A program made the translations under genes and the position numbers. DNA of 36,583 nt. Origin: Candidatus Daviesbacteria bacterium RIFCSPHIGHO2_01_FULL_40_11. GTDB taxonomy: Bacteria > Patescibacteriota > Microgenomatia > Daviesbacterales > UBA10151. The stretch is taken from positions 1 through 36,583 of the forward strand of contig MFCP01000027.1 of the NCBI GenBank assembly GCA_001776635.1, read 5' to 3'. Below are positions 946 to 31,895 of this stretch, one piece after another; position 1 is the first letter of the stretch; the number at the start of each line of letters is the position of its first letter. The notes below the pieces were generated by a model that was not told the origin of the DNA, did not search any database, and saw only the letters and a list, made by a program, of their open reading frames with translations.

Positions 946-1018
946 GGGGCCGTAGTGAACCGGTCATCACGTCTCCCTGTCACGGAGAAGATAGCGGGTT
1001 CGATTCCCGTCGGCCCCG
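946..1018 (+). tRNA. tRNA-Asp (GTC anticodon)
   Basis: Cloverleaf read by eye: acceptor GGGGCCG/CGGCCCC, anticodon arm TCTCC-CTGTCAC-GGAGA, T-arm GCGGG-TTCGATT-CCCGT; CCA not encoded. Confidence 0.93.
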
Positions 1019-1026
1019 CAGATAGT

Positions 1027-2574
1027 TTACTCTTCTGTTTGTAAGGACTCTCTAAGAGAAGTCATATCAAACTGATTTACACTCTCAGTTACATCAATAA
1101 ACTCAAAGGGCCTGCTATAGTTAGAAAAATAGTATTTATCTTCTAATAATTCATACCTGGCATTAAAGTAATTATTAAAAATCAATCTAAAAATATTTAC
1201 CGGGGTAAGATTGTCATAAGTGAATTTTTCCTTATCCGGGAGTTTATAAGCTATAAAGGGCCTCATCCTCTCCTGAATAAGATCAGGGTTATACTCTTCC
1301 ATGCCTGGTGTTGAAGCCGAACCATGATCAGCTTGGATGATTATTATTGGTGAATTTTCTCTACCAAAAGTCAATTTTCTGACCAAATCCATTACCATTT
1401 TATTGATAAATAACAGCTGGTTTAAATAATCCTTCCTATCTTGCCAAGTATCCAATCCTGTAACTTTATTTTCTGCTGTTAGTTTAACCTGTTCCCCATT
1501 TGGACCAAAAAGGTAAGGTGGATGAGGCGAGACAATATGGGCAAATACAAACATCGGACCGTCAACATTTTCTCTGATACTGGCCAGTTGGGAAAATGTA
1601 CATAGTACTCTGTCTCGGGCTTTATCAGATAAATACATACCATTAAATGTCCTTAGCATAGTAGTTTTAAGAAAAGTCGCTATAAACTGGTTGCTTACCC
1701 CGCACGAAACATTTAAATCTGCAAAATTATTCTCCTGTGTACCTACCCAGCCGGAATTAAAATGTACAGCTTGATAGTCTTTTGATTTTAATATCTTGAG
1801 CACCTCATTATCTTTAATCATGTTAATAGCGGCTATTTGATCAGTCAGGTAACTTACATACTTCATGTTAAGCGAGGATGCTAGTGAGAGGTGAGTAAGA
1901 GCATAATTACTGTGGGCATTATAGGCTATGTTAAAATCCTTACTTTCCAAAAAATTTACAAAATTAATGTTATCGTATCCGTAAATATTTTTTAATACTT
2001 CATTGCTAGCATACCCATCCAAAATAATATAGTAAATATCAGGACGATCAGTAATTACGGGAAAGTTCTGGTTTAAATTATTGAGTTGTTTATTCGTTTT
2101 GGTAGTATCATTATAAGCAAACAATACTTTATTGTTATTTAGGTTGTATCCTGCAATTTGAATTAAGGATACTAAAACCAATATGCCCCCTGTTACCAAC
2201 GGAAATACTTCTAAACCCCGAAGTTTTCTCCCAAATTTAATTATCAAAAAGCTTCCAATTAGTAAAAAGGCTGACCAGAGTACAAACAGGCTAATGTCTT
2301 TTTCACCGTTTTTTACTAAGAAACCATCCAGGACTTTATAAACCTGACCATACGAGTAAAATAACAACAAAAAATAAGTTACCAATAGACTTGTTTTGTA
2401 CCTATCCTTAATTAAACCATTCAAAAATAACCATAAACCGAGTGTAAAACCTATGCTAAACTCTAGAGGCAGAATAATCCTATCAAATCGGACTTTATGA
2501 ATATTTTTAGTGTAAAAAGCCAGAATTGGAAAAGCAGCAAATAACAACGGATGTAAAAACTTAAACCTATGCAT
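1027..2574 (-). CDS. Membrane alkaline-phosphatase-superfamily (sulfatase/phosphotransferase-like) protein
   Basis: Multiple N-terminal hydrophobic segments, then a soluble domain with DIYYIILDGYAS, NYALTHLSLASSLNM (candidate Thr nucleophile) and IIIIQADHGS metal-binding motifs. Confidence 0.82.
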   Translation of the reverse strand: MHRFKFLHPLLFAAFPILAFYTKNIHKVRFDRIILPLEFSIGFTLGLWLFLNGLIKDRYKTSLLVTYFLLLFYSYGQVYKVLDGFLVKNGEKDISLFVLWSAFLLIGSFLIIKFGRKLRGLEVFPLVTGGILVLVSLIQIAGYNLNNNKVLFAYNDTTKTNKQLNNLNQNFPVITDRPDIYYIILDGYASNEVLKNIYGYDNINFVNFLESKDFNIAYNAHSNYALTHLSLASSLNMKYVSYLTDQIAAINMIKDNEVLKILKSKDYQAVHFNSGWVGTQENNFADLNVSCGVSNQFIATFLKTTMLRTFNGMYLSDKARDRVLCTFSQLASIRENVDGPMFVFAHIVSPHPPYLFGPNGEQVKLTAENKVTGLDTWQDRKDYLNQLLFINKMVMDLVRKLTFGRENSPIIIIQADHGSASTPGMEEYNPDLIQERMRPFIAYKLPDKEKFTYDNLTPVNIFRLIFNNYFNARYELLEDKYYFSNYSRPFEFIDVTESVNQFDMTSLRESLQTEE

Positions 2575-2583
2575 TTTAATTTT

Positions 2584-4002
2584 TTATTTTCCTTCCATCA
2601 AAAACAATACCCTTTGGGAATGCCTAATTTTTACAGAGTATTTAATAGTAAAATACTGCTTAAATTCTTGCACAAAATTTTCCTGTGTGTAATCAGGAAA
2701 AATATCTTTCCGAAACAAAAGCAACCTTTTTACGTTCGAATCGCTCTTTGGAATAAACTCTATGATAAGAAATTTACAAATGCTCCTAAAAAAACTTGCC
2801 ATTTTAGCAAAAGGAAGATTATTTGATACGGCAAGATGATGAACCAATGCTAAAGCAAAAATCATGTCCACCGGCCCTCGAGTCTCTAAACTCATCCTTT
2901 CCTTGTTTTCCCAACCAATACCGGGGCTGGGATTAGTAAGGTCAATAATAAGTGGTAAAATGTTTTCTTCTCTTTCTTCAACACAACGCAGGTAGTTTCT
3001 TTCAACAGCTTCCGGATCGCCATCTATAGATATTACTGGTATATCTAGCTTACTGGCAATACGGCTAAACAGTCCGGTATTTGCTCCTAAATCCCAGACA
3101 CTTTTGGGTTTAACTGTTTTTAGAAATTTCTCAATTACCCGCTTTTTTTGTTCAAACCCCACTTTAGAGTAGTTCGTGTCGGAATAATAATCCCCCCACT
3201 GTGATCCTCTCAACTTATAATTCAGCCGTTTAGTCACCGATTCCAGGCTATCAATTAACCCTAACAAGGATAATTTATTTACTCGGGGTGGGTTAAGCTG
3301 CATTTTCAGAAAGACCCTGCGCATATCTCCTTCACTATATGCTGCATAGCGGTTTTGGCTCCTGGCATGCAGGTGGATATGGGTTAAAAGCGAAAAATTA
3401 AGATAAGTACTTAAGGGTAATAAAGAACTCGTGAGATCTAAAGGTATTCCATCAATATAGGCTCTATTTAATTTGTTTAGCCTAAGATCCCTATAAGACA
3501 TCAACGCCAAAGGGGCAAGAAAATGCTGGCAGAATTGTCTATACCCCTTCCATGGCTGCCCCTCCTTATATTCCTCAAACGACAAAGTATCAATTAGAAT
3601 CGGCTTGCCTTTCCAAAACTGGATATTATAAGCACTACTGTCTTTTAAAGACATTCCAAACTCAAGGGCTCTCTTTTGAATCTGGATAGTAGCAAGGGCA
3701 GCATGCTTTAGTTGGCTAAAACTCCATTCATAAGGATAAGAGACAAATGGAATCATTTCCGGTTTAATAAGCTTAAAATAACCGTTGCTTTTTTGATCTT
3801 TCTTCGCTTCTTGGTGTGGAATTAACAACATATCCTCCACTAAAGATCGATAAAGGCCTGAATTGATTAAAAAATCATAACTTTCCCGATAGATCAAATT
3901 TACCCTACGGTATAAAGAACCCTTCCTTTTAAGGACCACTCCGCTTGGATCTCTAAACGAACCCGAAATGAGTTCATTTTGGGGAATTTTTTTTGTTTGC
4001 AT
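2584..4002 (-). CDS. Two-domain protein: N-terminal kinase-like region plus C-terminal class I SAM-dependent methyltransferase
   Basis: N-terminal SFRDPSGVV..LYRRVN..Y...YD.LINSGLY and LKDSSAYNIQFWKGKPILIDTLSFE (resembles kinase catalytic/DFG loops); C-terminal SVWDLGANTGLFSRIAS...VISIDGDPEAVERN methyltransferase motif I and II. Confidence 0.75.
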   Translation of the reverse strand: MQTKKIPQNELISGSFRDPSGVVLKRKGSLYRRVNLIYRESYDFLINSGLYRSLVEDMLLIPHQEAKKDQKSNGYFKLIKPEMIPFVSYPYEWSFSQLKHAALATIQIQKRALEFGMSLKDSSAYNIQFWKGKPILIDTLSFEEYKEGQPWKGYRQFCQHFLAPLALMSYRDLRLNKLNRAYIDGIPLDLTSSLLPLSTYLNFSLLTHIHLHARSQNRYAAYSEGDMRRVFLKMQLNPPRVNKLSLLGLIDSLESVTKRLNYKLRGSQWGDYYSDTNYSKVGFEQKKRVIEKFLKTVKPKSVWDLGANTGLFSRIASKLDIPVISIDGDPEAVERNYLRCVEEREENILPLIIDLTNPSPGIGWENKERMSLETRGPVDMIFALALVHHLAVSNNLPFAKMASFFRSICKFLIIEFIPKSDSNVKRLLLFRKDIFPDYTQENFVQEFKQYFTIKYSVKIRHSQRVLFLMEGK

Positions 4003-4219
4003 GCGTGGAAAAAAGATTTCTTAGAAAATTTACTATTTTTCTAAAGAAAAGTTTCACAGTCAATATTGCTCCCAGTAATGAGGCAATCGCAATTTGGAAT
4101 AAGTAGCTATTGGCTCCAGGGTCTAAATAAGCATATGTCTGTTTAGGAAAAGTTAGGTTTACTAAAAAAATGGCCGTAAATATTATAGCAATAGTTTGTA
4201 AAAATATTTTCATTGGCAA
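3974..4219 (-). CDS. Small membrane protein with YLDPG motif
   Basis: 81 aa, two hydrophobic segments around AYLDPGANSYLFQIAIASLLGAILTVK; overlaps the next gene's start by 29 bp. Confidence 0.75.
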   Translation of the reverse strand: MPMKIFLQTIAIIFTAIFLVNLTFPKQTYAYLDPGANSYLFQIAIASLLGAILTVKLFFRKIVNFLRNLFSTHANKKNSPK

Positions 4220-4385
4220 ACCTTCAGCAGAAATGTCGATTTGAATAATACTATACCATTTACCTATGTTTCAAGACCTCTAAGTTTGGCAAGCAAACAT
4301 ATTGCCTCTGTTTGCCCTCTTGACAATTTAGCTCATTTGGATTAAAAGTATCAGTAGAAAACTGCCTTCAAATCTGTCCTCAAAG

Positions 4386-6641: not shown

Positions 6642-7808
6642 TTAAATCTTTTGAGCCAAAACAACTAGATGCTTCTCGTTTCCACCAGCATCTATTTTGT
6701 TTAATTTTATTTCAAATCCGGCATTTTTAACCATCTCAATATTTTTCTTTGCTCCGAAGTGACTCCACCACATTTTTGTTCCATGGAAATCTTCTTCTGT
6801 TCCCTCCCATTCACCTACTCCCATTGTTACTAAAATATATCCACCTTTAGAAAGAAAAGAACTAATCTTTTTAAACAGCTCTTGATGTCCCTCTCTGGGA
6901 GTATGGAAAATTGCATAGAGTGAAACTACAGCATCTACCCGGTACTCATCATTTTGTAACTCCAACATATCCTTCGCCTCAAAGTTTGCCTGAGGAACAT
7001 TTTTTCGGGCCAGTTTTATTTGTTTTTCAGAAAAATCAATGCCTTTTACCTTAAATCCCTTTTCTACTAAAAATTTATCTACCGGTACTCCACTGCCACA
7101 ACCAATATCCAAAATAGTTACCCCAGGCCTTAGTAATTCCACCAGTCTCTCCAGATATTTCATATTGCTAAATTGGTCCCTGGATGCAGAATATTTTTCC
7201 GCTATTTTATTGTAACCCTGTTTGACTAAATCGCTTTCCCGAGAAAAGTTTAGCAGATGAATTAGCTCCTTTTCTGCAGCTTCAGAGTTAGTAAATGTTT
7301 TGTAACCATACTTTTCTGCCTCTTCTTTGTATTTTGTCCTGTCACAATTAAAAAACAATCTTGCTTCTAACTCCTGCAGCTTTTCAGTTTTTCCCCATCT
7401 TGGATCTTGTTTATTCCTTTCAAAAATCTCATTAAATGATTCTCCTAATAGAAATACCCCCGGAAAACTAAAATCCTTTTTTGCTAAATGAGGCAGGATA
7501 TTTACTCCTTCAAAAATTGCTGATTTGTGCGATTGCATTACTTCCTTAACTTTACTTAAAATTGTTGGCCAAAAAGCCTCCGATTGTTTAACTAAATTTT
7601 GCCAATGTTCCTCACACGAAGTTTCTATTAGATATTTTTCTTCATCCTGTTTAAAGAAGAAGTTGACCCAATACTCTAACTTGGAATCCTTAGACATTTC
7701 CTCCCTTACTGTGTCTAAATCTAAGACAAAAGCCCCGGTTTCATCCGAGATTTTCTTCGCCAGATAACTTTTACCCGATGCCGGTATTCCCCCAATGAAA
7801 ATATACAT
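6642..7808 (-). CDS. P-loop kinase (AAA_33/2-phosphoglycerate kinase-like) fused to class I SAM methyltransferase
   Basis: N-terminal MYIFIGGIPASGKSYLAKK Walker A; C-terminal VTILDIGCGSGVPVDKFLVEKGFKVKGIDFSEKQI methyltransferase motifs in one ORF. Confidence 0.8.
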   Translation of the reverse strand: MYIFIGGIPASGKSYLAKKISDETGAFVLDLDTVREEMSKDSKLEYWVNFFFKQDEEKYLIETSCEEHWQNLVKQSEAFWPTILSKVKEVMQSHKSAIFEGVNILPHLAKKDFSFPGVFLLGESFNEIFERNKQDPRWGKTEKLQELEARLFFNCDRTKYKEEAEKYGYKTFTNSEAAEKELIHLLNFSRESDLVKQGYNKIAEKYSASRDQFSNMKYLERLVELLRPGVTILDIGCGSGVPVDKFLVEKGFKVKGIDFSEKQIKLARKNVPQANFEAKDMLELQNDEYRVDAVVSLYAIFHTPREGHQELFKKISSFLSKGGYILVTMGVGEWEGTEEDFHGTKMWWSHFGAKKNIEMVKNAGFEIKLNKIDAGGNEKHLVVLAQKI

Positions 7809-8561: not shown

Positions 8562-9293
8562 ATGGCTTACAGATACCGCTCTAGAAGATCAGTAAAGAGG
8601 TTAGCTCGTAGAAGTAGAAGAAATTTTTTAATTACTATAATCATAATTGCCATTCTGCTCTATTCCACATTAATGTGGATCCTTCCCAATTTTATAGGTG
8701 GCATTGGGTTTGTTAAAAATGTGATTAAGCCTTCACAAAACAATTCTAATCAATCTTCCGATACTTTAGCCCTTGCTCCTCCTGTGCTAAACATTCCCTA
8801 CGAGGCAACCAACAGCGCCCAAATTGATATTAAAGGCTTTGGGACTCCTACTTCTAAAGTCAAACTATACATTGATGATGAATCCAGTCAAACAATTGGA
8901 GTTTTAAGTGACGGAAGTTTTATCTTTGAAAATGTAACTCTAAACCTGGGCACAAATAATATTTATGGGAAAACTGTAGATGATAAGGGTCAAGAAAGTT
9001 TACCTTCTAAAACCATAAAACTTCAATTTGACAATGAAACTCCCTCTCTTAGTATTAACGAACCAGAGGATAGTAAGGTAGTGCAAGGCGGAGATAAAAA
9101 AGTTAGGGTTTCTGGTAAAACCGAACCAGGTGTAAAGGTTTTTATTAACGATATGCAAATAATTGTAGGAGGAGATGGAAATTTCAGTACCGATCAACCC
9201 TTAAACGAAGGGGCTAATACTATCTCCATAAAAGCAGTTGATGCTGCTTCCAATACTAACGAGCTCCAAAGAAGAGTTAATTATAACCCTTAA
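8562..9293 (+). CDS. Membrane-anchored protein with tandem bacterial Ig-like (glucodextranase-B-like) domains
   Basis: N-terminal TM segment, then two repeats of form ...VNINEP..G.TEPG.KV.I......GDG.F.....L..G.NTI.IKAVD..SN. Confidence 0.8.
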   Translation: MAYRYRSRRSVKRLARRSRRNFLITIIIIAILLYSTLMWILPNFIGGIGFVKNVIKPSQNNSNQSSDTLALAPPVLNIPYEATNSAQIDIKGFGTPTSKVKLYIDDESSQTIGVLSDGSFIFENVTLNLGTNNIYGKTVDDKGQESLPSKTIKLQFDNETPSLSINEPEDSKVVQGGDKKVRVSGKTEPGVKVFINDMQIIVGGDGNFSTDQPLNEGANTISIKAVDAASNTNELQRRVNYNP

Positions 9294-10351
9294 GAAACCC
9301 AATAACCCACAATAAAAAGTGCAGTAAAAATAGAAAGCAATGCGATAGAAACCACTTGAAAGAAAAGACCGACGTAGCGGTTTTTTATAAGTACCACTAA
9401 AATAAAAATAGGAAATACAGGGAGTAAAAACCTCGGCATAGATGAAAGAGTAGGTGTAAAAAGCGGGATACCAACTGAAATTAAGCTATATATTGCAAAA
9501 GATGGAGACAAAAACCTGAAAGCCCTTATTGCAAATCCAACCCCAAATATTGCAAAAATTAGATCAAGAAGAATATTAAATTTTGGTGCTGTAAACCCGC
9601 TACTTGAAATATTTCCCAGTGTCTGCCAAAATCCAATCACGGGTGTTGCCAGTGTTCTTTGCCAGTGATTTTCGGCTGTGATAAAGTAAAATGGATCGCC
9701 CGTTTGTTGATACAAAAATATACAATATGAAACAAACCCCAAAGGCGCCAGTAAAATAAACCAATTTTTCCGATTTATACCCTGCTTTGTGAGAATATCT
9801 ATCCAAAGAGCCACAACAACGGCCAAACCAACTACCCTGGTAGCAGAAACTAAAACCACAGCTATAGTAGCCCAAAATAATTTGTTCTGTCTTAAGAAAT
9901 AGAAGGCGGCAATGGTTAAAAGAAAAAACAACCCCTCGGAATAAGCTGTTAAGAAAAAGAAAGAGGTGGGGAAAAACAAGAGGGCCAAAATCGCCTTTTC
10001 GGCAATCTTTTTGTCAAAATCACCTGCCACCAATTTATATAGTAAATGCAATCCTAAAAAGGTGGCTGTCACACTTATTAAAATCGCCGCTAGCAAATAA
10101 TTTTGCGTTACCTGATTTAATGCTTTAATAGTCAACGGATAAAGCGGGAAAAAGGCATACTGGAATTTTTGGCTATAACCACTTTCCGCGATCCCCAAGT
10201 AATGACCACCGTCCCAATTTCCTAAGCTTTCCCAAAAATTATTATTAAATTTGCCAGATTGTGGTAAAGTCGAAAAACCAAAGTAGGCCACTGATAAAAC
10301 TACTGTCAACCAGATGATAAAAATATAAACCACATTAGGATATAATCTCAT
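9290..10351 (-). CDS. PIG-V-like mannosyltransferase family membrane protein
   Basis: NWDGGHYLGIAESGYSQKFQYAFFPLYPLTIKAL motif (WD.xHY...A..GY......AFFPLYP) plus multiple TM segments. Confidence 0.82.
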   Translation of the reverse strand: MRLYPNVVYIFIIWLTVVLSVAYFGFSTLPQSGKFNNNFWESLGNWDGGHYLGIAESGYSQKFQYAFFPLYPLTIKALNQVTQNYLLAAILISVTATFLGLHLLYKLVAGDFDKKIAEKAILALLFFPTSFFFLTAYSEGLFFLLTIAAFYFLRQNKLFWATIAVVLVSATRVVGLAVVVALWIDILTKQGINRKNWFILLAPLGFVSYCIFLYQQTGDPFYFITAENHWQRTLATPVIGFWQTLGNISSSGFTAPKFNILLDLIFAIFGVGFAIRAFRFLSPSFAIYSLISVGIPLFTPTLSSMPRFLLPVFPIFILVVLIKNRYVGLFFQVVSIALLSIFTALFIVGYWVS

Positions 10352-10354
10352 TGC

Positions 10355-11509
10355 ATGAATACTCTTTTGGTTTTGATTCTAGCACTGGCTGTAGCAAGCG
10401 GTCAATTAATCAGGATACCGGTCGGAACACAAGGTGGTATTACCATTTTAGATATTACCGTTTCACTTTTGTGTCTTGGGGGACTCTTAAAACTTAAATT
10501 TAATCTTAAGAAGTCTCCTCCTCAAATTATTTCAGCCTTAGTTTTTTTAAGCTTAGCAACCCTCTCTTTAATTTTTACACCACTGAATCTGAAGACAGAA
10601 GAATACATAATCAGTTTTTCTTACACCGTCAGATTTTTTCTCTATGTGCTTTTTACTTGGCTTATCTTTTCAAATGCTTTTGGTGATTTGAAAGAAAATG
10701 TGACTAAAGTCTTTTTGCTTTCCGGAATCTCATTTGCATTTTTGGGACTTTTGCAATTTCTACTGTTTCCTAACTTAAATTTCTTAAGTATCTTAGGATG
10801 GGACCCCCACTATTTTAGGACGGTTTCCACATTCCTAGACCCCAACTTTGCAGGAGCATTTCTTGTACTGTCATCAATATTGGTATTCCAAAATTTCGCA
10901 AATGACAAAAAATGGAACACTATCTTTTTTTTGATAATTTATTTAGCGCTTCTAACTACCTTTTCGCGCAGTAGTTATTTGATGTTTCTGGTAAGTGGAT
11001 TAACTTTTTCTTTCTTAAAAAAATCAAAAATTTATATTTTTGCAACCGTTATGCTATTTGCGCTTCTTCTGGTAGGATTCCAGGTTTATACTAACTTGGT
11101 TGCCCAACCCCGTAATATAGACAGGGAACAATCAGCCTCCTCCCGTTTAAATACCTGGGAACAAGGGATTACCATTTTTCAAAAATATCCAGTTCTGGGT
11201 ATCGGGTTTAATGCATATAGATATGGGATAAGAGAGTTTAAATTAGGGGATGAGCAGTTTTTGCAAAGCCACGGCTCGTCCAGCAATGATTCTTCACTTT
11301 TGTTTGTATTATCTACTACCGGAATAATCGGCCTTTTAAGTTTCCTCTATTTTCTATTCTCTCTTGTCCATGCGAATTATTCGAATAAGCAAATCATTGT
11401 AATCCCAGCTCTTCTAGGGCTGTTTGTCCATTCCCTGTTTGCCAACAGCCTTTTTTATCCACCAATACTTGCTTGGATTCTGATCATTTCAGCAATCCCC
11501 AAAAAGTAA
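10355..11509 (+). CDS. O-antigen ligase/polymerase-like membrane protein
   Basis: Polytopic; TFLDPNFAGAFLVL, LLTTFSRSSYLMFL and the periplasmic RLNTWEQGITIFQKYPVLGIGFNAYRY...HGSSSNDSSLLFVLSTTGIIGL pattern of the Wzy/WaaL family. Confidence 0.87.
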   Translation: MNTLLVLILALAVASGQLIRIPVGTQGGITILDITVSLLCLGGLLKLKFNLKKSPPQIISALVFLSLATLSLIFTPLNLKTEEYIISFSYTVRFFLYVLFTWLIFSNAFGDLKENVTKVFLLSGISFAFLGLLQFLLFPNLNFLSILGWDPHYFRTVSTFLDPNFAGAFLVLSSILVFQNFANDKKWNTIFFLIIYLALLTTFSRSSYLMFLVSGLTFSFLKKSKIYIFATVMLFALLLVGFQVYTNLVAQPRNIDREQSASSRLNTWEQGITIFQKYPVLGIGFNAYRYGIREFKLGDEQFLQSHGSSSNDSSLLFVLSTTGIIGLLSFLYFLFSLVHANYSNKQIIVIPALLGLFVHSLFANSLFYPPILAWILIISAIPKK

Positions 11510-12464
11510 TTTTTTTCTCTTTCATAAAACTTTCTATATATTCATCACTTACCTTTCTACTTGACTGAATCCTCTTTCTTTCGTGAAGAAGTTGTGGCAG
11601 GTGAAATAAAATCCAAAGGTCTGCCAAAACCGGGGGCCAAAAATATCCATTTCTTAACTGATAAAAAATAGTGTTTAAGTGCACTAAGATTATTTTTAAC
11701 CACCGCCATTTTTTAAATAAAATACTAACAGGGAAGTCCTTGACGATGGTTTGAGTCATATTTCTAAACTGCCAGTATTCTACATGGGCTGAGAATTTCT
11801 TGGCTGTTGCTTTATGTTTGTGGAAAACCTTCGCTTCAGGACAGAAAATAGATTTATATCTTTGAAACTGTGCTCTAAAGGCAAAATCTACCTCTTCAGA
11901 ATACATAAAATAATTTTCATCAAATAAACCTAATTTTACGAAACTCTCTCTTCTGAATAGCGATGCACCACCTGTTGCCCCAAAGATATATTGCTCGCTA
12001 TTATACTGTCCTTTATCTTTCTCTTGCCAATCTATTGACCTGGCTTGACCAACTTCATTTATTAAAATTCCCACCCCGTCTATGATTTTTTTATTATAGA
12101 AATTTAATAGTTTTGAATTAACGGAAATTACCTCGGGGTGCAACTCAGCGCATTCTATTAATTTTTTTATAAATTCTTTATCGACACTAGTATCATTGTT
12201 CAAAAGAACAATATACTCTGCGCGAGATACCTTAACCCCCTCATTTATAGCCCTGGCAAAACCAAAATTCTTCTGTAGAGATATTATTCTTACTTTAGGG
12301 AAATTATTTTTTACATACTCAACCGAACCGTCTGTAGAACCATTATCCACTAAAATGATCTCAAAGTTTTTATAACTTTGATTCTTCAAAGATTTAAGAC
12401 AATCTTTTAATAAGTCTCTACCATTCCAGTTAGGAATAATAACCGAGATATCAATCTTTTCCAT
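11484..12464 (-). CDS. GT2 family glycosyltransferase
   Basis: DISVIIPNWNGRDLLKDCLKSLKNQSYKNFEIILVDNGSTDGSVEYV...YIVLLNNDTSVD...FDENYFMYSEEVDFAFRA. Confidence 0.94.
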   Translation of the reverse strand: MEKIDISVIIPNWNGRDLLKDCLKSLKNQSYKNFEIILVDNGSTDGSVEYVKNNFPKVRIISLQKNFGFARAINEGVKVSRAEYIVLLNNDTSVDKEFIKKLIECAELHPEVISVNSKLLNFYNKKIIDGVGILINEVGQARSIDWQEKDKGQYNSEQYIFGATGGASLFRRESFVKLGLFDENYFMYSEEVDFAFRAQFQRYKSIFCPEAKVFHKHKATAKKFSAHVEYWQFRNMTQTIVKDFPVSILFKKWRWLKIILVHLNTIFYQLRNGYFWPPVLADLWILFHLPQLLHERKRIQSSRKVSDEYIESFMKEKKITFWGLLK

Positions 12465-12465
12465 C

Positions 12466-13149
12466 TCATTCCTTAGAAGCTACAACCAAAAAATGGTAAT
12501 ATGCCAAGTTTTTATATTTATCAACAAGTTCTTGATACAAAACCTTCTTAAAAATCCACCACAATATCGGTATTTTACTAATTAAACCCTCAAGCGGTAA
12601 TCTGGTCATGGTCCCTATAACCTTTTCAACTTTCCAGCCATTTTCTGAAAGCAGTTTCGGTAAAGTATTAATAGTATAAAAATGCAAATGGGTCTTATCT
12701 AAAAACCCACTCTCCTGATACTGGAAATCTCCTTTGAAAAATAATTGTTTTCTCATGGTCCAACTGGCAATATTGGGAAGAGAGACGAGCAATTTTGTTC
12801 CAGCTGATGCTTTTTTAGATAGTTGCCTTAATACCTTTTCCGGGTCTACCAGATGCTCCAGTACATCTGCCATCACGATAAAATCATAGCGGCCCAATTT
12901 GTTATAAAATCCTCTATCTTCTATTGAGGTATTAAATACCGTCTTAACACCCTTTGGTAATTTGGCCACTGCTTTTTGATCAGACTCCACAACATCCACA
13001 GCACAATCTTGCTCTAAAAAAGCACGACTCATATAACCCGTGGAGGACCCAATCTCCAAAACAGTTTTTTCTTTGCCAACTATTTTCAAAATTTCCTGCT
13101 GGGTGGGGGACAGACCGTATTTTTTAAAAATCTGCTCGTATACAATCAT
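12466..13149 (-). CDS. Class I SAM-dependent methyltransferase (MetW/Methyltransf_23-like)
   Basis: KTVLEIGSSTGYMSRAFLEQDCAVDVVESDQKAV...YDFIVMADVLEHLVDPEKVLRQL. Confidence 0.9.
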   Translation of the reverse strand: MIVYEQIFKKYGLSPTQQEILKIVGKEKTVLEIGSSTGYMSRAFLEQDCAVDVVESDQKAVAKLPKGVKTVFNTSIEDRGFYNKLGRYDFIVMADVLEHLVDPEKVLRQLSKKASAGTKLLVSLPNIASWTMRKQLFFKGDFQYQESGFLDKTHLHFYTINTLPKLLSENGWKVEKVIGTMTRLPLEGLISKIPILWWIFKKVLYQELVDKYKNLAYYHFLVVASKE

Positions 13150-14381
13150 TATCTTACTTTATCCAAAATTCTATTTTTTACAAACAGGAAGAAAATAACA
13201 AAAGATAAAACTTCCGATGCAACAGTTACCCAAGAAGCAGCAATAAAACCAAACTGAGGAATAAATATTAAATTAGCTGCTATATTAAAAACTAAGGCAA
13301 GAACAGATAAAATTAAAACCTGTTTCAAAAATTTATCCGTTGAAAGCAAAACAGAAACAGCGGGTACATGGATTAACATAAAGGGAATAGCTAAAGATAA
13401 AATCCTAATTGCCCCAATAGATGACAAATAATTCGGCAGCACTGCTTTAATAATCTCCGGCAAAATTAAAACATATCCCAACCAAACTACTAAACCTAAC
13501 ACTAGCATCACCTTAAATGAATTAAAATATAATCTTTTTACATCTTTTACAGAAGACTCATGCAGCCTTGCCAATACTGGCAGCAGAGCCAGCGAGAATG
13601 CGGAAGGAATAAAAGTCACAGCTTCCAAAAATTTGAAGGCTGCTCCGTAAATACCCGTCTCAAAACTCCCCTTCATATAGGAGAGCAAAATAGCATCTAT
13701 CCTAAAATAAAGCAGGCCCAATACCGAAAGCAAGCCATAAGGCAAAGACCCAATTATGATTTTTTTAATTACGGTTAGATGGACTCTCGATAAAACTAAG
13801 CTTTGGTGTCTATACAAAAAAATAATTAAGATAGTTACATACGCTACTTGCCCAACAATCAACGCATTAACCGCGCCCAACGGGCCAAAACCGTTCCCCA
13901 CCAAATATAAACCTGCTAAAGTAGTGAATAAACTGGAGACAAAAAGTGCTGCTGCGGAAAATTGTAATTTTTGTTTGGCCACAAATATTGCATCAAAAGC
14001 AAAAGCAACGGATTGAGGCAAAATCGCAAGGGTAGCCAAAAGGATTAGGCTCACTCTCATTTTATCGGGATCCAGCAAATATAGAATGATGGAAAAAATT
14101 GCAAATAAAATTGAAGTTAAAGTCAACCGTAACATTACAATATTCCAAAGTAACTCCGGAGCTTTTGATTTGTCTATTGCTACTTCCCTAATTAAAAATC
14201 TGTTAAATCCAAAATCTGCCACTGAAGAAAGAATGGAAAAATAAGCAAGAGCTACTATGTATAAACCAAAATCTGAAACTCCTAAAATCCTAGCCAAATA
14301 GATAATATAGAAAAAACCAATAGCTCTGGTTAAAACTTGAGCAAAAAATAGCCAGGATGTTTGTTTTAAAATTGCTCTCAC
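13149..14381 (-). CDS. Oligosaccharide flippase (Wzx/MATE-like polysaccharide exporter)
   Basis: QTSWLFFAQVLTRAIGFFYIIYLARILGVSDFGLYIVALAYFSILSSVADFGFNRFLIREVA and about 12 hydrophobic segments. Confidence 0.93.
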   Translation of the reverse strand: MRAILKQTSWLFFAQVLTRAIGFFYIIYLARILGVSDFGLYIVALAYFSILSSVADFGFNRFLIREVAIDKSKAPELLWNIVMLRLTLTSILFAIFSIILYLLDPDKMRVSLILLATLAILPQSVAFAFDAIFVAKQKLQFSAAALFVSSLFTTLAGLYLVGNGFGPLGAVNALIVGQVAYVTILIIFLYRHQSLVLSRVHLTVIKKIIIGSLPYGLLSVLGLLYFRIDAILLSYMKGSFETGIYGAAFKFLEAVTFIPSAFSLALLPVLARLHESSVKDVKRLYFNSFKVMLVLGLVVWLGYVLILPEIIKAVLPNYLSSIGAIRILSLAIPFMLIHVPAVSVLLSTDKFLKQVLILSVLALVFNIAANLIFIPQFGFIAASWVTVASEVLSFVIFFLFVKNRILDKVR

Positions 14382-16671: not shown

Positions 16672-17718
16672 TTACCTTTTTCTTGCACAAGATGCAACCA
16701 TCCCGAGTAACAAGAAAGTTGCCACTATCGAACTTCCCCCATACGAAATTAACGGTAAAGTAATGCCTGTTATCGGCAGAAGTCCCACATTCATTCCAAT
16801 ATTCACGAAAACCTGAAATAAAAACATTGATACTACACCCATCACCACCAAAAGGCTAAATGAATTATTTACCCGTTGGGCCACTCTCAAAAAGTAGAAG
16901 AGTAGAAATAGATACAGCGACAAAATCAACAAAGAACCTACAAATCCCATCTCCTCTGCAATGGACGCAAATATAAAATCGGTCCTAAATTCTGGTAAGA
17001 ATTGTAATCTTGATTGAGTACCCCTTCCCAAACCCCTTCCGAAAAGTTCCCCGGATCCCACTGCAATTGTTGATTGTATTAGATTATAACCTTTGCCCAA
17101 GGGATCAGACTCCGGTGCCAGGAAGCTTAAAATTCGCTCCCTTTGATAATCGTGTAGGAACGACCAGCTTGTGGGAATTACAAAGATGAAAATTGCCGCG
17201 AGTATCAATATCTTTCTGATGGAAATATGTGTTACAAGCAATATCCCAAGCCATATTGCAATCAAAGTAAGCGCCGAACCTAGATCCGGCTGTTTAAAAA
17301 CTAATACGAAGGATGGGGCAAACCAAAGCAAGCTTTTTAGGATATTCAACCAATTCGGAGAATGCTCTGACCAAAATTTTGCCAACATCAGTATCAAAAT
17401 TGGTTTGGCAAATTCGGAAGGCTGAATATTAAATATTCCTAGAGGAATCCAACGAAGCGCTCCTCTTGTTTCAATGCCTAAAATTAACACAGCAACAAGC
17501 ACTATCAAAATAAAAATATATAATGGTTTAATCAGGTTTCTTAGTGACTCCAGCTCTATTTGTGAAACAAGGAAAAAAAATACTATGCCTATACCAGTAA
17601 ATATTAATTGTTGTAAAGCTAGCTCTTTTGAAGAAGAATAAATGACGAGTATGCCCACAGATACCAGCAACAAACTAACCAGACTTATGGGCAAGTTAAT
17701 ATTACCTAGATTTCTCAT
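16672..17718 (-). CDS. rodA: SEDS-family peptidoglycan glycosyltransferase RodA
   Basis: GALRWIPLGIFNIQPSEFAKPILILMLAKF, KQPDLGSALTLIAIWLGIL, FLPEFRTDFIFASIAEEMGFVGS, GITLPLISYGGSSI. Confidence 0.94.
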   Translation of the reverse strand: MRNLGNINLPISLVSLLLVSVGILVIYSSSKELALQQLIFTGIGIVFFFLVSQIELESLRNLIKPLYIFILIVLVAVLILGIETRGALRWIPLGIFNIQPSEFAKPILILMLAKFWSEHSPNWLNILKSLLWFAPSFVLVFKQPDLGSALTLIAIWLGILLVTHISIRKILILAAIFIFVIPTSWSFLHDYQRERILSFLAPESDPLGKGYNLIQSTIAVGSGELFGRGLGRGTQSRLQFLPEFRTDFIFASIAEEMGFVGSLLILSLYLFLLFYFLRVAQRVNNSFSLLVVMGVVSMFLFQVFVNIGMNVGLLPITGITLPLISYGGSSIVATFLLLGMVASCARKR

Positions 17719-17729
17719 TATAAATATAG

Positions 17730-17750
17730 ATCCCGTATCAAGTACGGGAT
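17730..17750. repeat. Short palindrome ATCCCGTA-tcaag-TACGGGAT in the ileS-rodA gap
   Basis: Perfect 8-bp inverted repeat around a 5-nt loop; no T-run typical of an intrinsic terminator. Confidence 0.8.
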
Positions 17751-17757
17751 GATACTA

Positions 17758-20571
17758 TTACGTCACCTTAAGGACTTTAAACTCTGAGCCTTCTTCTATT
17801 GAAATAGAAGCTGTACCTGCAAGAATTTGTTTTTCAAAGGATCTAGGCCATGATGTAGCCATAATTTTTGTCTTATCAGTCAAGGTTAAACCTTGCTCTT
17901 TTCTAAGCTGCTGTATTTGTCTGATTAAATCCCTTGCTTCGCCTTCTTCTTTCAGTTCTTGGGTAATTTTAGTATCCAAATCAACTTTCGGCTCCGGCGA
18001 TGGGGACTTTTGGTATTCAACCTTTTTTACATTGAGCTCTTCTGCAAGAATTTTCTCTAACTGCTCACTTAGTCTCTCCGGTGATTTGTATGAAACAGAA
18101 GCTAAAGGTTGTCTTAATTTAATCCCTCCCTCTTTTCTTTTAGCATGCCCAACTTCTGCAATTTTGCGAACTTTCGCCATATCTTTCATTAAATCTTCAT
18201 CCAACAATTCTTTACTAATCTCCGGAAAATCTTGCAGATGGACTGATTCTTCGTCTGTTAAACCTTTAAACATATCTTCTGTAATAAAAGGTACAAGTGG
18301 CGCTGCCAACTTAGCTACCGTCACCAGTACCTCATACATAACCGAGAGCGATGTGTTTCTGTCTAAAGGATCTGCCGAGAAATCAACCCTATCCCTTGAT
18401 CTTCGAATATACCAGGTCGAGAAATCATTTAATATAAATTCCTTCGTGTATTTAACGATATCCGTGGTATTGTACCCCCCATATGCTTTTCTTAAATCAG
18501 CAATCAACTGTGTTAATTTCGAAAGAATCCATCTGTCCAAAACCGTTAATTTACGGTCTCCACCATCAAGACTCCAATCGGATAAATTCGCATACTCTAC
18601 AAAAAACTTATAAGTATTCCAAAACACCAAGAGAAATCTGTACGCTTCCGCTACTCCTTCTTCGCTGAAATTGATATCCTCTCCTTTCATAATGGGAGCT
18701 CCCATAAAATAAACCCTCATCGCATCGCCTCCATATTTCTCCAAAATCACTTTAGGATCAGGATAATTACCAAAGTTTTTGCTCATCTTCCTGCCGTCTG
18801 TTCCCAGAAGAACTCCTGTAACCACTGCGTTCTTAAAGGCATTTGAACCGTAAAGGGCCGTAGAGAGAACATGGAGTACATAAAACCAGGCCCTGATTTG
18901 GCCTGTGTACTCAACTATAAAATCCGGAGGAAAAAATTCTTCCAGTTTAATATCTGCTTTAAAAGGAAAATGCCTCTCCGCAAAAGGAGCAGATCCTGCT
19001 TCAGTCCAACTATCCAAAACCTCAGGTACTCTTCGGGCTTGTTTCCCACATTTTTCGCATTTGACTATCACTTCATCAATCTCCGGTTTATGTAAATCAG
19101 TTATTTTTTCGCCTGAATGCTCTTCCAGCTCGGCAATAGAACCGGGCACAAACCTTTCCCCACATTCGCACTCCCAAACCGGCACAGGGGAACCCCAATA
19201 TCTGCTTCTTGAAATGTTCCAATCAGGAGCAGCTTCCAAACTCTTTAAAAACCGACCGTGCTTAAAATGTTTGGGAAACCAATTTACCATCTCATTTGTC
19301 TTTTTCATTTGGTCTTTGAGTAGTTGTACATTAACAAACCAGGCATCTTGAGGGGCATAAAATAAGCGGGTTGCGCATCTCCAACAATGTGGCACACTGT
19401 GGATATAGTCGTCTATCCTGTATATAAATCCCCGGTCCTTTAAGTCCTCAAGCACTAACTTATCGGCCTTCAGGTAATACATCCCGCCAAATTTTGGCAC
19501 AAAATCTTTTACTGTTCCTTCTTCATCCACATGCATTACCATCTGAATATTTTCCTTTTGCATCAGAGCCAAATCTTCTTCACCATATGGGGCAAGAGTT
19601 ACTACTCCTGTGCCTTCTTCGCCGGTAACGAACTCATCGCCAACTATAATAAACGCCTTCTTACCAGAATCAATCTTGTAAAAATCGTAATGGGGTATAA
19701 ATTCTTTACCAATTAATTCACTACCTTTAAATTCTTCCAATACCTTGTAGGATTCTTCTTTTAGCATTTTAACTGTACCTTTTGCAAGGATATAGTTTTC
19801 ACTACCCTGTGAGACTTTTACATAGGTAAGTTCGGGGTTAACTGCCAAAGCTGAAGTCACCAATTTGTTCCAAGGGGTAGTTGACCAGGCAAGCAGGAAA
19901 GTATTTTTCTCACCCTTTAAGGAATACTTATACACTGCCGTAGACTCTGTCACATCCTTATAATTATCCGCATCCATGGCCACTTCGAAATTGGAAATCG
20001 GGGTTGAGCAATGGGGGCAAAAGAGTGAAACCCGCAGGCCTTTGTAGATTAAATTCTTCTCATACATCTGCTTAAATACCCACATCACCGTTTCCATGTA
20101 AGGCAAATCCATAGTTCTGTAAGCATTTTTGAAATCTACCCATCTGCCTATATGATCCACATACCACTCCCACTCGGAAGAAACATTGTTAACATATGCC
20201 TTACAAGCTTCAATGAATTTCTTAACCCCAATTTTCTCTTCTATATCTCTTTTTCTCGTGACCCCCAACTGCTCCTCAACCTTATTTTCTGCGGGTAGGC
20301 CGTGACAATCCCATCCCCAAACGCGCCTTACCCGAAAGCCTTTCATTGTCCAGTATCTGGGAAAGATATCTTTTGGCACCCAGGGTAGAATATTTCCATA
20401 ATGAGGCATCCCGGTAATAAACGGCGGGCCATCTAAAAAGTTCCAATCCCCATTAGGTGCTTTTTTCTCCAGTGATTTTTCAAAAATCTTTTCCTCTTTC
20501 CAGAATTTAAGAATATTTTCTTCAACTTGTGCAAAATCAACTTGTGAAGAGACTGGTTTAAACTTTTGCAT
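17758..20571 (-). CDS. ileS: Isoleucyl-tRNA synthetase
   Basis: FLDGPPFITGMPHYGNILPWVPKDIFPRYWTMKGFRVRRVWGWDCHGLPAENKVEEQLG; LGTDGRKMSKNFGNYPDP. Confidence 0.95.
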   Translation of the reverse strand: MQKFKPVSSQVDFAQVEENILKFWKEEKIFEKSLEKKAPNGDWNFLDGPPFITGMPHYGNILPWVPKDIFPRYWTMKGFRVRRVWGWDCHGLPAENKVEEQLGVTRKRDIEEKIGVKKFIEACKAYVNNVSSEWEWYVDHIGRWVDFKNAYRTMDLPYMETVMWVFKQMYEKNLIYKGLRVSLFCPHCSTPISNFEVAMDADNYKDVTESTAVYKYSLKGEKNTFLLAWSTTPWNKLVTSALAVNPELTYVKVSQGSENYILAKGTVKMLKEESYKVLEEFKGSELIGKEFIPHYDFYKIDSGKKAFIIVGDEFVTGEEGTGVVTLAPYGEEDLALMQKENIQMVMHVDEEGTVKDFVPKFGGMYYLKADKLVLEDLKDRGFIYRIDDYIHSVPHCWRCATRLFYAPQDAWFVNVQLLKDQMKKTNEMVNWFPKHFKHGRFLKSLEAAPDWNISRSRYWGSPVPVWECECGERFVPGSIAELEEHSGEKITDLHKPEIDEVIVKCEKCGKQARRVPEVLDSWTEAGSAPFAERHFPFKADIKLEEFFPPDFIVEYTGQIRAWFYVLHVLSTALYGSNAFKNAVVTGVLLGTDGRKMSKNFGNYPDPKVILEKYGGDAMRVYFMGAPIMKGEDINFSEEGVAEAYRFLLVFWNTYKFFVEYANLSDWSLDGGDRKLTVLDRWILSKLTQLIADLRKAYGGYNTTDIVKYTKEFILNDFSTWYIRRSRDRVDFSADPLDRNTSLSVMYEVLVTVAKLAAPLVPFITEDMFKGLTDEESVHLQDFPEISKELLDEDLMKDMAKVRKIAEVGHAKRKEGGIKLRQPLASVSYKSPERLSEQLEKILAEELNVKKVEYQKSPSPEPKVDLDTKITQELKEEGEARDLIRQIQQLRKEQGLTLTDKTKIMATSWPRSFEKQILAGTASISIEEGSEFKVLKVT

Positions 20572-20614
20572 ACGACCTCAATTCTAACAAAAACCCATTG
20601 GTTTAACTAGTTAC

Positions 20615-20830
20615 TTAAGTTTTTATGTTGCTCTCTTTAACCATCTTTTGACGGAATGGACAATCATAAATACTTACATCAATCGAGGAAGGTTCATGGT
20701 ATTTTGGTCCTGTGAGGGCATATGTTGGTCTATGAATCAATCGGGCCCTCCCAGCTTTATAACGCGTACATATCCTTCCTGGCTCTTCTGGACAGTTGTC
20801 ACATCTGTATAAATCAGGTTCTCTTTCCAT
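20615..20830 (-). CDS. Small Cys-containing hypothetical protein
   Basis: 71-aa ORF MEREPDLYRCDNCPEEPGRICTRYK...SIYDCPFRQK with CxxC-x(7)-C and a later C; no confident family. Confidence 0.45.
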   Translation of the reverse strand: MEREPDLYRCDNCPEEPGRICTRYKAGRARLIHRPTYALTGPKYHEPSSIDVSIYDCPFRQKMVKESNIKT

Positions 20831-20841
20831 ATTTTTTCCAC

Positions 20842-20866
20842 AAAAAAACCTCCCGTTTTTGGGAGG
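20842..20866 (-). terminator. Intrinsic terminator downstream of ftsZ
   Basis: Minus strand CCTCCC-AAAAAC-GGGAGG followed by TTTTTTT. Confidence 0.8.
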
Positions 20867-20901
20867 CTTTTGCCTTTTCTTACATAGCTAAAAGCTACAC
20901 G

Positions 20902-20923
20902 AAAAAGCCTCCCTTCTTGGAGG
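20902..20923 (-). terminator. Second intrinsic terminator-like hairpin downstream of ftsZ
   Basis: Minus strand CCTCC-AAGAAG-GGAGG followed by CTTTTTC. Confidence 0.65.
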
Positions 20924-21000
20924 TAATAATTGTAATAATAATTTCTGTTCTTAGTGTAAACATGACTTTTATTCTAATAAAATTAGATTCTCCTGTCAAT

Positions 21001-22164
21001 TTAGCGATTTGACCTTAAAAATGCTGGGATTTCTAAGTCTTCTTCGTCTTCCTCTACTTTTCGCTCTTCTTTCTCTTCCTCCGATTCGGATCCTCCCTCA
21101 GTAACTTGAGAATCAACTGGCGGTGAATTTGTATCTGAAAAAGCAAGTGGTTGAGCTTGCAGAGAAGCAGATCCTATGCCGCTACCAATATACTCCCGTA
21201 GTCTTCTCCTTGTTTCATCAAACCCTGTTGCAATTACAGAGATTTTTATTTGATCCAATTGATCTTCTTTAATGGTTGCACCAAATATGATGTTGGCATC
21301 AGGATCTGCAGCTTGGGCAATAATTTGGGCCGCCTCATTAACTTCTGTCATAGAGAGATCGGATCCACCCACAATATTGAAAAGGACCCCTTTCGCGCCT
21401 TCTATTGAAACTTCGAGCAAAGGAGAAGCTATTGCCATTCTAGCCGCCGCGGCGGCTCTATTCTCACCGCCAGCAACACCTATTCCCATGAGAGCTGATC
21501 CGGCATTAGACATAATAGTCTTAACATCTGCAAAATCAACATTGATAAGTCCCGGCATCGTGATGAGGTCCGAAATACCCTGGACACCCTGACCCAGTAC
21601 CGAATCTGCCAACTTAAATGCCTCTTGTAAAGTCATATTTTTCTCAACAGTTTCTAATAACCTTTGATTCGGAATAATAATCAAAGCATCTACCTGACCT
21701 TTAAGTTTCTCGATTCCCTCCTCTGCCACCACCATTCTTCTGGTGCCCTCAAAGGCAAAAGGCTTGGTAACCACAGCCACAGTCAAAGCACCAACGGTTC
21801 TCGCAACGGAAGCCACAATTGGTATAGAACCTGTCCCAGTTCCCCCACCCATGCCTGCAGTTATAAATACCATATCAGCGTCCTGTAAAACATCTTGGAG
21901 TTTCTGTGTGGATTCTTCGGCGGCCTGTTTTCCTACTTCCGGATCTCCGCCTGAACCTAAACCGCGGGTTAGGTTTTCACCAATTTGAACCTTGGTAGGA
22001 GATTGGTTATTCATTAAAGCCTGCGCATCGGTATTAACAGCAACAAATTCCACTCCTTGCATTTGTTGCAGGGAGATCATTGAATTTAAAGAATTAGAGC
22101 CGCCGCCGCCAAGTCCCATCACCTTAATTTTTGCAAATCTCTGGACGTCCGGTTTTATAAGCAT
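21001..22164 (-). CDS. ftsZ: Cell division protein FtsZ
   Basis: IKVMGLGGGGSNSLNSM, FITAGMGGGTGTGSIPIVA, C-terminal peptide DLEIPAFLRSNR. Confidence 0.97.
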   Translation of the reverse strand: MLIKPDVQRFAKIKVMGLGGGGSNSLNSMISLQQMQGVEFVAVNTDAQALMNNQSPTKVQIGENLTRGLGSGGDPEVGKQAAEESTQKLQDVLQDADMVFITAGMGGGTGTGSIPIVASVARTVGALTVAVVTKPFAFEGTRRMVVAEEGIEKLKGQVDALIIIPNQRLLETVEKNMTLQEAFKLADSVLGQGVQGISDLITMPGLINVDFADVKTIMSNAGSALMGIGVAGGENRAAAAARMAIASPLLEVSIEGAKGVLFNIVGGSDLSMTEVNEAAQIIAQAADPDANIIFGATIKEDQLDQIKISVIATGFDETRRRLREYIGSGIGSASLQAQPLAFSDTNSPPVDSQVTEGGSESEEEKEERKVEEDEEDLEIPAFLRSNR

Positions 22165-22350
22165 AAATTTTTCCTTTTAAAATTTAAGCTTGAAAACGAA
22201 GTCTTTCAAGCGGTGCTTTCAAACTCCGTTCATAAGCATAGGTTATTTTGAGGGCATTCTAACAAATGAATATTGTCTTTGCAACCCCCCTTCTGACAGA
22301 TCAAAAATAAGTGATTGACAGTCCGACAAGCTCACTGCAAGCCCAAAAAA

Positions 22351-23652
22351 TCAAGGCAGAAATGATTTTATTAAGTCAATTCCTTTTTGTATCATTCCTT
22401 TGATAGGCAGACTTGCTGAAAGAACTGGTATGTGCAATTGTCCTTGTGGACCCTGTGTTGCCCCGTAAAGAATCAAACCTGCTGAAGTTGCAAATGAGGG
22501 TGATTCTACCTCTTCCACAAGTCCCGACAAACCCTCAATGTTACCCACTCTTGCCGGAAATCCTAATGCATACTTTGCTTGTTCCAAAGTCCCAACGGTT
22601 AAAGCTCCACCCCCACAGATTACCAAACCTGATGGTACCTGTGTACCAAAACCACTTTTTTTAATTTCCTTGCCCACAAATTTAAATATCTCTTGCAAAC
22701 GAGGTTTGATAATCCCATCAACCACAGCTTTACGGGAAATTTTTTGTATGTCCTCGATAATACCCAATGCCTTAATGTCTATCGCCTCTTCATCTTTCTT
22801 CTTGTTATTTAATGTTGTCTTGCTGCTTTCTTCCAGTCCCTCTGAGACTGCAGGAGTTTTTGGTAGTTTCCCTAAAGATAATTTAATTTTTTCTGCAGAT
22901 TCCAAAGAAACGCGAAGTCCCACTGCCATATCAGAAGTAATATGGCGCGCGCCAATGGGAATAACAGATGAATAAGCGGTGGAACCGTCTATAAAAATTA
23001 CCACATCGGTTGTTTCTCCCCCTATATCCACTAACACTACACCCAGTTCCTTCTCTGTATCTGAAAGTACCGCCAAAGCGGAAGCGATACCGGAAAAAAC
23101 CAATTCCGTAACATCTATACCAACTTGGGAAACGCATTTAACAAGATTTCTCATAGAGGTCGTAGAACCGGTAATTATATGTGTTTCTGTTTCCAATCTT
23201 ACCCCGGTCATTCCTATCGGATCCTTGATACCTTCCTGCCCATCAACTGTGAAAGTACGCGGAATCACATGAAGGATTTCTCTTGATGAAGGAAGCGGAA
23301 TTGCCCGGGCCGCATCATTTACTCTACGGATGTCAGACTCTTTAATCTCCTCTTCGGGTTCAGAAACAGCTACTACCGCATGCTGATTGATGCTTTCTAT
23401 CTGGGGGCCGCCTAATGATACAAAGGCCTGTGAAATAGAGTAGCCGGCCATTCTCTCTGCTGACTCAACAGATTCTGTTATTGCAGCAATAGCTTCTTCA
23501 ATATCCACAACTTGGGTTTTCTTAACGCCCTTTGAGGGAGTTGTAGAAACACCAATTAGATTGATCTTTCCACTCTCTTCGACTGAAGCAATAAGGGTAG
23601 CTATTTTGGATGAGCCAACATCTATTCCGCAGATAACTCGATCTTTAGCCAT
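22351..23652 (-). CDS. ftsA: Cell division protein FtsA
   Basis: VICGIDVGSSKIATLIA, VVLVDIGGETTDVVIFIDGSTAYSSVIPIGARHITSDMA, LVICGGGALTVGTLEQA. Confidence 0.95.
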   Translation of the reverse strand: MAKDRVICGIDVGSSKIATLIASVEESGKINLIGVSTTPSKGVKKTQVVDIEEAIAAITESVESAERMAGYSISQAFVSLGGPQIESINQHAVVAVSEPEEEIKESDIRRVNDAARAIPLPSSREILHVIPRTFTVDGQEGIKDPIGMTGVRLETETHIITGSTTSMRNLVKCVSQVGIDVTELVFSGIASALAVLSDTEKELGVVLVDIGGETTDVVIFIDGSTAYSSVIPIGARHITSDMAVGLRVSLESAEKIKLSLGKLPKTPAVSEGLEESSKTTLNNKKKDEEAIDIKALGIIEDIQKISRKAVVDGIIKPRLQEIFKFVGKEIKKSGFGTQVPSGLVICGGGALTVGTLEQAKYALGFPARVGNIEGLSGLVEEVESPSFATSAGLILYGATQGPQGQLHIPVLSASLPIKGMIQKGIDLIKSFLP

Positions 23653-23655
23653 AAA

Positions 23656-24456
23656 CTATTTTTTAGGGGCAAATTTTACAATGGGTTTATCAAATCTTAA
23701 ATCGATAAACTCCAGTTCTTTCAAATCTATTTTAGCTTCTGCGAGGATCAATTGTAAAGATGCAATTTGTACATCTACTCTATCATCTAGTAGAAATATT
23801 ACCCTGGGATAAGAAAATATAATAAAAAAATTATCCAAAACTACCGACGTTTTTACATCCAGTCCAAATGTTTTTACTTTATCCAGAATTTTCAAACTGT
23901 TTTTTGTATTATCTCCTTCCGGTTCTTTCCCCAAAGAAAGATTTACATCTTTGATAAAAATATTTGGGATATTAAACCTCCCTGTACTTTTGGAAAAAAT
24001 TACCCCCTCGCTGTCTATTAAATAAGCATCCTGAGACTCCTTAGCGCTCGGTGTGGCAATATTTTCCAAAATGGAAGACGAACTTGCTTCCTTATTTTGT
24101 AATAACATCAAAGTAGCAACAGGTTGTCTACCGCTAATCTTTATTTTGATCTTATTGGGGAAAACTAAAGATAAATCAACATTCCTAATACAAATAAATT
24201 TTGCCTTTAGATTTTTTTTAATATTTTCAAAATTAATGAGAAAAACATTGTGTCCGATAATGTTTGTAGAATTTCTTATCTGGGTTTCATCAGTACATTC
24301 AAGCTGACTGTTACTTATTTCAACTTGGGTTATATTAAGAAGTCCCCATTTAAAAACAACAAATACTAAGGAGCTTACAAAAAGAATAGGGATCACCCAA
24401 TAAATTTTAGTCCAGTTACCAGAAAATCTCTTCTTGGATTTTCTTTTTCTCCACAT
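23656..24456 (-). CDS. ftsQ: FtsQ/DivIB-like cell division protein
   Basis: Basic N-terminus, single TM, POTRA-like region (VEISNSQLECTDETQIRN...NVDLSLVFPNKIKIKISGRQPVATL); position between murG and ftsA. Confidence 0.8.
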   Translation of the reverse strand: MWRKRKSKKRFSGNWTKIYWVIPILFVSSLVFVVFKWGLLNITQVEISNSQLECTDETQIRNSTNIIGHNVFLINFENIKKNLKAKFICIRNVDLSLVFPNKIKIKISGRQPVATLMLLQNKEASSSSILENIATPSAKESQDAYLIDSEGVIFSKSTGRFNIPNIFIKDVNLSLGKEPEGDNTKNSLKILDKVKTFGLDVKTSVVLDNFFIIFSYPRVIFLLDDRVDVQIASLQLILAEAKIDLKELEFIDLRFDKPIVKFAPKK

Positions 24457-24463
24457 ACTTACA

Positions 24464-28825: not shown

Positions 28826-28829
28826 ATCC

Positions 28830-31869: not shown

Positions 31870-31895
31870 TAAGGGATATTATATAACAGAGTCTT

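Follow-up and report, generated by a model that had tools for sequence, protein, structure and literature searches.

We report that a stretch of 36,583 bp from Candidatus Daviesbacteria bacterium RIFCSPHIGHO2_01_FULL_40_11 (contig MFCP01000027.1; hereafter the window) carries, as judged by sequence homology, a complete YLDPG-noeA-noeB cassette, i.e. the counterpart of the noeA and noeB genes of Sinorhizobium together with a small gene that accompanies them, and that this cassette probably decorates a cell-surface sugar. The genome to which this contig belongs measures 964 kb, is estimated to be 95% complete and, by its size and gene content, resembles that of a CPR/Patescibacteria-type bacterium. 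An original prediction had put the three genes forward as an undescribed system. This no longer holds, as they belong to the NoeA/NoeB family, and a kinase-methyltransferase family with its conserved neighbours is already described in PMC9758233. What appears to be new is that the YLDPG gene constantly accompanies the enzymes, including within the noe operon, as well as the co-inheritance at the genome level; the finding of an intact cassette in bacteria with small genomes (CPR-type) is also added here.

The three genes all lie on the minus strand where the original prediction had placed them (Table 1), with an overlap of 29 bp (3974-4002) between the YLDPG open reading frame (ORF) and the kinase-fold/methyltransferase fusion, and a gap of 9 bp (2575-2583) between the fusion and the adjoining NoeB-type gene. 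The ATG at 4213 is preferred to the TTG at 4219 as the start of the YLDPG ORF, because it has AAGG upstream. The extended -10-like element that had been noted ahead of the cassette is present, but the promoter itself is unproven, since a mere 13 bp separate the element from the closest -35-like box (TTGAAA), and since the region has about as many promoter-like sites as shuffled sequences do (17 versus 11.9, sd 3.3). The cassette is flanked by a divergent LysM gene and by a tRNA-Asp gene (946-1019, plus strand), the latter just beyond its 3' end; tRNA genes are common insertion sites.

Table 1. Features of the cassette, in window coordinates
Feature	Position	Strand	Remarks
YLDPG microprotein ORF	3974-4219 with TTG start; 3974-4213 with ATG start	-	79 aa from ATG
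NoeA-family kinase-fold/methyltransferase fusion	2584-4002	-	472 aa; homology to S. meliloti NoeA, conserved in relatives
Kinase-fold domain (predicted), ~residues 20-215	3358-3945	-	R32, D121, N126, D138 invariant; predicted fold
Class I SAM methyltransferase domain (predicted), ~residues 285-470, motif I VWDLGANTGLFSR	2593-3150	-	Pfam sub-threshold, model, Foldseek
NoeB-type membrane enzyme, alkaline phosphatase/sulfatase superfamily	1027-2574	-	515 aa; PF00884, hhalign to NoeB, TM prediction
Codon of T227, candidate nucleophile	1894-1896	-	Thr 38, Ser 2 of 40 homologues
Extended -10-like element TGGTATAGT	4250-4258	-	Seen in sequence; putative promoter

The identity of the cassette follows from the comparison with the nodL-noeA-noeB region of S. 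meliloti. In a translated search of plasmids, the fusion was found to match S. meliloti NoeA with 32% identity over 98% of its length (tblastn E 1e-66, blastp E 1e-80), and NoeB matched the profile of the membrane enzyme with an hhalign probability of 97%, the pairwise similarity being weak. The gene order on pSymA is nodL, a hypothetical protein of 71 aa, noeA and noeB; the sequence AYLDPGTGS occurs in the hypothetical protein, which is also matched by the YLDPG profile. Thus, the three genes and their order are common to the two systems, the homology being full-length for NoeA and at the profile level for NoeB and the YLDPG ORF, whereas the window is devoid of nodL, and its bacterium shows no sign of symbiosis. 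The small ORF was found in 61 plasmid records (57 from Sinorhizobium, three from Rhizobium and one from Ensifer), the same genus counts as those of NoeA, and its comparison between S. meliloti and Rhizobium T136 gave a dN/dS of 0.26, a value resting on only 17 changes. In Rhizobium T136, nodL, the YLDPG gene, the methyltransferase and a sulfatase-like gene follow one another in the same series, and YLDPG also stands next to the fusion on plasmids from Singulisphaera and a deltaproteobacterium.

The noeA and noeB genes of Sinorhizobium, a symbiont of alfalfa, have been known as host-range genes since the 1995 work of Ardourel, in which the Nod factors of the wild type and of noeA/noeB mutants were reportedly identical. 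Their operon, which is poorly understood, is required for the nodulation of certain hosts. Both genes have been called host-range genes for Medicago, and a truncated noeA has been found in a strain that fails to nodulate many genotypes (PMC4053727). The literature that we searched gives no biochemical role for either. A host-specific nodulation role is not expected in the organism of the window. PMC9758233 (2022) describes Lani_1194 of Legionella, a NoeA homologue, as a kinase-methyltransferase, and counts roughly 1200 species with homologues of it. As in the fusion of the window, an N-terminal kinase precedes a C-terminal methyltransferase, a D/N/D set is conserved, Arg takes the place of Lys72, and a neighbouring gene is homologous to noeB; this comparison was made through NoeA and the text of that paper rather than by sequence. 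According to the same text, 38% of the 816 neighbourhoods include a gene whose product has an alkaline-phosphatase fold and is homologous to NoeB, and Lani_1193 is a second such conserved neighbour (65%). Lani_1193 may be the YLDPG protein; if so, the YLDPG partner has already been catalogued.

The fusion had been predicted to join a kinase-like region to a methyltransferase, and both parts are supported. The motif string on which the kinase reading had been based, LKDSSAYNIQF...PILIDTLSFE, occupies residues 119-143, and R32, D121, N126 and D138 show no variation among 40 homologues; with D121, N126 and D138 thus conserved, the kinase-like motifs are, at the sequence level, not a chance resemblance. 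Pfam returned methyltransferase matches only, all below threshold, and no transmembrane (TM) segment was found. Foldseek with the full-length AlphaFold2 model (pTM 0.83) retrieved SAM methyltransferases, among them WbdD at ranks 2-3. When residues 1-245 were modelled alone from 40 sequences (pLDDT 87, pTM 0.85), the 50 PDB matches listed comprised kinases such as PAK1, PknG, RioK1, AmiN, ROCK and CK2 together with chains of the pre-40S ribosome. The original prediction had made its reading depend on a relation of the N-terminus to kinases, and the region is indeed modelled to adopt a protein-kinase fold. The query-normalised TM-scores to kinases are modest (0.30-0.48), so the kinship with known kinases is one of fold and not a close one. 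Single-sequence searches of the PDB with the fusion and with the membrane enzyme gave nothing meaningful, and the kinase-domain profile had neither a PDB match nor a convincing Pfam match, so that what speaks for a kinase is the predicted model together with the invariant residues.

WbdD, known from E. coli O9a, which the original prediction had offered as a parallel, and from K. pneumoniae O3, likewise unites a kinase and a methyltransferase in one protein. It stands as an analogue only: a search with the fusion gave no match to WbdD among PDB sequences at E<=1, though the PDB holds WbdD structures, and the order of the domains is reversed, the methyltransferase preceding the kinase in WbdD, whereas the kinase fold (residues 1-245) comes before the methyltransferase (~residues 285-470) in the fusion. 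On these two grounds, membership of the fusion in the WbdD family was rejected. Moreover, WbdD carries a long coiled-coil ruler (PMC11231755), whereas the fusion comprises 472 aa in all.

The membrane enzyme is matched by the Pfam Sulfatase family PF00884 (3.5e-10, 40.1 bits against a curated cut-off of 25), which assigns it at the sequence level to the alkaline phosphatase/sulfatase superfamily; it had no match in NCBIfam. Four TM helices are predicted in its N-terminal part. T227, which sits within NYALTHLSLASSLN, had been proposed to replace the Cys of sulfatases, and the alignment of 40 homologues, NoeB included, bears this out, the position being Thr in 38, Ser in two and Cys in none. H346, H351 and D416 are invariant in the same alignment, and position 417 is His in 28 sequences and Glu in 12. 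These residues would fit a metal-dependent enzyme with a Thr nucleophile, as extrapolated from the superfamily. A sulfatase of the Cys (FGly) type was considered and rejected, as the CxPxR nucleophile motif is absent and position 227 is never Cys. With LtaS and EptA the enzyme has in common the TM helices and, outside the cytoplasm, a domain of the sulfatase superfamily whose nucleophile position is occupied by Thr. It differs from them in motifs of its own (PDIYYxxxDxYA, NYxxTxxSLxSSLN, HxxxPHPP and QADH/EG), and in a profile search of the PDB sulfatases ranked first, the best match of the EptA type being marginal (E=0.61). In loci L066, L067, L090 and L099, NoeB-type genes are paired in tandem behind the fusion.

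The YLDPG microprotein has hydrophobic segments at residues 3-19 and 41-57, which flank the AYLDPG motif, and a basic tail. The same pattern of two hydrophobic segments around an AYLDPG/AYIDPG loop, followed by a basic tail, was seen in all eight aligned members, and from it a hairpin is predicted whose loop lies outside and whose tail lies inside. A role as a membrane partner of the enzymes is plausible. YLDPG is the common element of these loci, because it is found beside either enzyme alone, i.e. with the fusion as well as, in loci L103 and L104, with the membrane enzyme and no fusion. A literature search for the string YLDPG, a weak probe, returned no paper, and this conserved partner appears never to have been named.

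The co-occurrence of the three families elsewhere, which the original prediction had left to be checked, was found. Among the genomes of 56 relatives of the window's organism, the fusion and the membrane enzyme occur in the identical nine, and YLDPG matches are strong in these nine alone, three other genomes giving weak ones. Among 241 genomes drawn from the phylum, the two enzymes again share an identical set, of six, and YLDPG was found in these six, in G118 and as a relic in G007. YLDPG-like matches in G024 and G028 proved to be larger proteins of an unrelated kind. The relic ORF (L105:4676-4882) joins the N-terminus of YLDPG to what seems to be the C-terminal end of a NoeB-type enzyme, with glycosyltransferases beside it, as if it were the leftover of a deleted cassette. 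The match in G118 (L112) is located at a contig end and adjoins genes resembling phosphonate-type metabolism (by eye, phosphonopyruvate decarboxylase-like and cytidylyltransferase-like). At least 565 relatives of the fusion were found in the genome collection, and among the best 80 loci, which span many phyla, 76 have enough sequence to hold YLDPG, which immediately precedes the fusion in 70 of them. A gene for the membrane enzyme directly follows the fusion in 36/65 loci and is present anywhere in the locus in 42/65; a NoeB-type gene is thus missing nearby from about one third of the loci, and hence the fusion and the NoeB-type enzyme need not share one pathway everywhere.

The cassette has likely moved horizontally, as a tree of 90 fusion proteins suggests. 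Its carriers include Chloroflexota, Zixibacteria, small-genome bacteria and an archaeon. In the tree, many forks of which are weakly supported, the nine copies from the window's relatives require four changes, two of them forced by well-supported branches, and the copy of the window falls outside its own genus, nearest to Stahlbacteria and Zixibacteria. When viral contigs were scanned with one protein, no relative was found, so a viral origin is without support.

We propose that the cassette as a whole serves the phospho/methyl modification of a lipid-linked surface glycan, with a Thr-dependent step on the outside and the YLDPG protein as an anchor, and we consider the chances of this full explanation to be about even. 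At the inner membrane face or in the cytoplasm, the NoeA-like enzyme would phosphorylate a sugar or a glycan linked to lipid, and would then methylate the phosphorylated product by a chemistry resembling that of WbdD. The NoeB-like enzyme, through Thr227 and a metal site, would act on the glycan or lipid after its export, either transferring a polar group or removing one, and the YLDPG hairpin would anchor or couple both enzymes at the membrane. Such chemistry is plausible, as methyltransferase-kinases that add methyl-phosphate to glycans, namely WbdD and Klebsiella O7 ORF6, have been characterised (PMC11231755). The envelope-glycan direction of the original prediction is supported; the window holds genes for a flippase, an O-antigen ligase and glycosyltransferases at a distance of 5-10 kb from the cassette, and sugar-nucleotide and glycosyltransferase genes lie near several other copies, glycan genes being found near some but not most of these (5/75 sampled neighbours per family).

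It is conceivable that the kinase-fold domain does not phosphorylate, being a pseudokinase, a scaffold or a catalyst of some other nucleotide transfer, in which case the fusion would act as a methyltransferase only, with a sugar or lipid as its substrate, while the Thr enzyme would work separately. The Arg at the position of the usual Lys72, the lack of an identified ion-pair Glu in the account of the family in PMC9758233, the modest TM-scores and the pairing of YLDPG with either enzyme alone would agree with this; however, pseudokinases rarely retain residues such as D121, N126, D138 and R32, which are invariant here, and we regard the alternative as unlikely. That the cassette modifies membrane lipids instead, the Thr enzyme being an LtaS/EptA-like headgroup transferase and the fusion preparing or methylating the headgroup, is suggested by the TM-anchored PF00884 architecture with its Thr and by a homologue on a Singulisphaera plasmid that is annotated as LTA synthase family. 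Yet sulfatases outrank the EptA-type protein in the profile search, and the informative neighbourhoods hold glycan genes, which makes this reading decidedly unlikely.

The cassette might instead decorate a signal of the lipochitooligosaccharide type that is secreted, a hypothesis raised for NoeA/NoeB and Nod factors in PMC9048898 and PMC9758233. In favour of this, noeA and noeB belong to a nod operon, in which they come after the acetyltransferase gene nodL. However, many non-symbiotic phyla carry the cassette, as do small-genome bacteria, and nodulation genes are not found next to it there, and a noeA orthologue has been noted in a non-symbiont (PMC3899959), so that we hold a signal to be a very improbable target. 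A surface polysaccharide is more likely the target than a symbiosis signal, because most of the carriers found are not known symbionts. We further put forward, as a tentative idea that falls somewhat short of probable, that YLDPG-NoeA-NoeB is a widespread, horizontally moving phospho/methyl module for surface glycans with the YLDPG hairpin as a required membrane adaptor, that noeA and noeB would act through surface polysaccharide, and that the noe operon holds an overlooked gene. The spread of the cassette beyond symbionts allows the function of noeA/noeB to be tested in settings other than symbiosis and directs attention to envelope chemistry, with D121, T227 and the small ORF between nodL and noeA as concrete targets.

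Several other loci of the window may be mentioned. The region 9290-14381 encodes a PIG-V-like mannosyltransferase, a Wzy_C O-antigen ligase, a GT2, a methyltransferase and a Wzx-type flippase. A second, unrelated kinase-methyltransferase fusion, with a P-loop kinase-like N-terminus (AAA_33/AAA_18) and a Methyltransf_25 domain, lies at 6642-7808 on the minus strand, and a cell-division/cell-wall cluster at 16672-33593 includes Mur ligases, an MraY-type GT4, FtsW/RodA, a MurG-type GT28, FtsA, FtsZ and a penicillin-binding protein.
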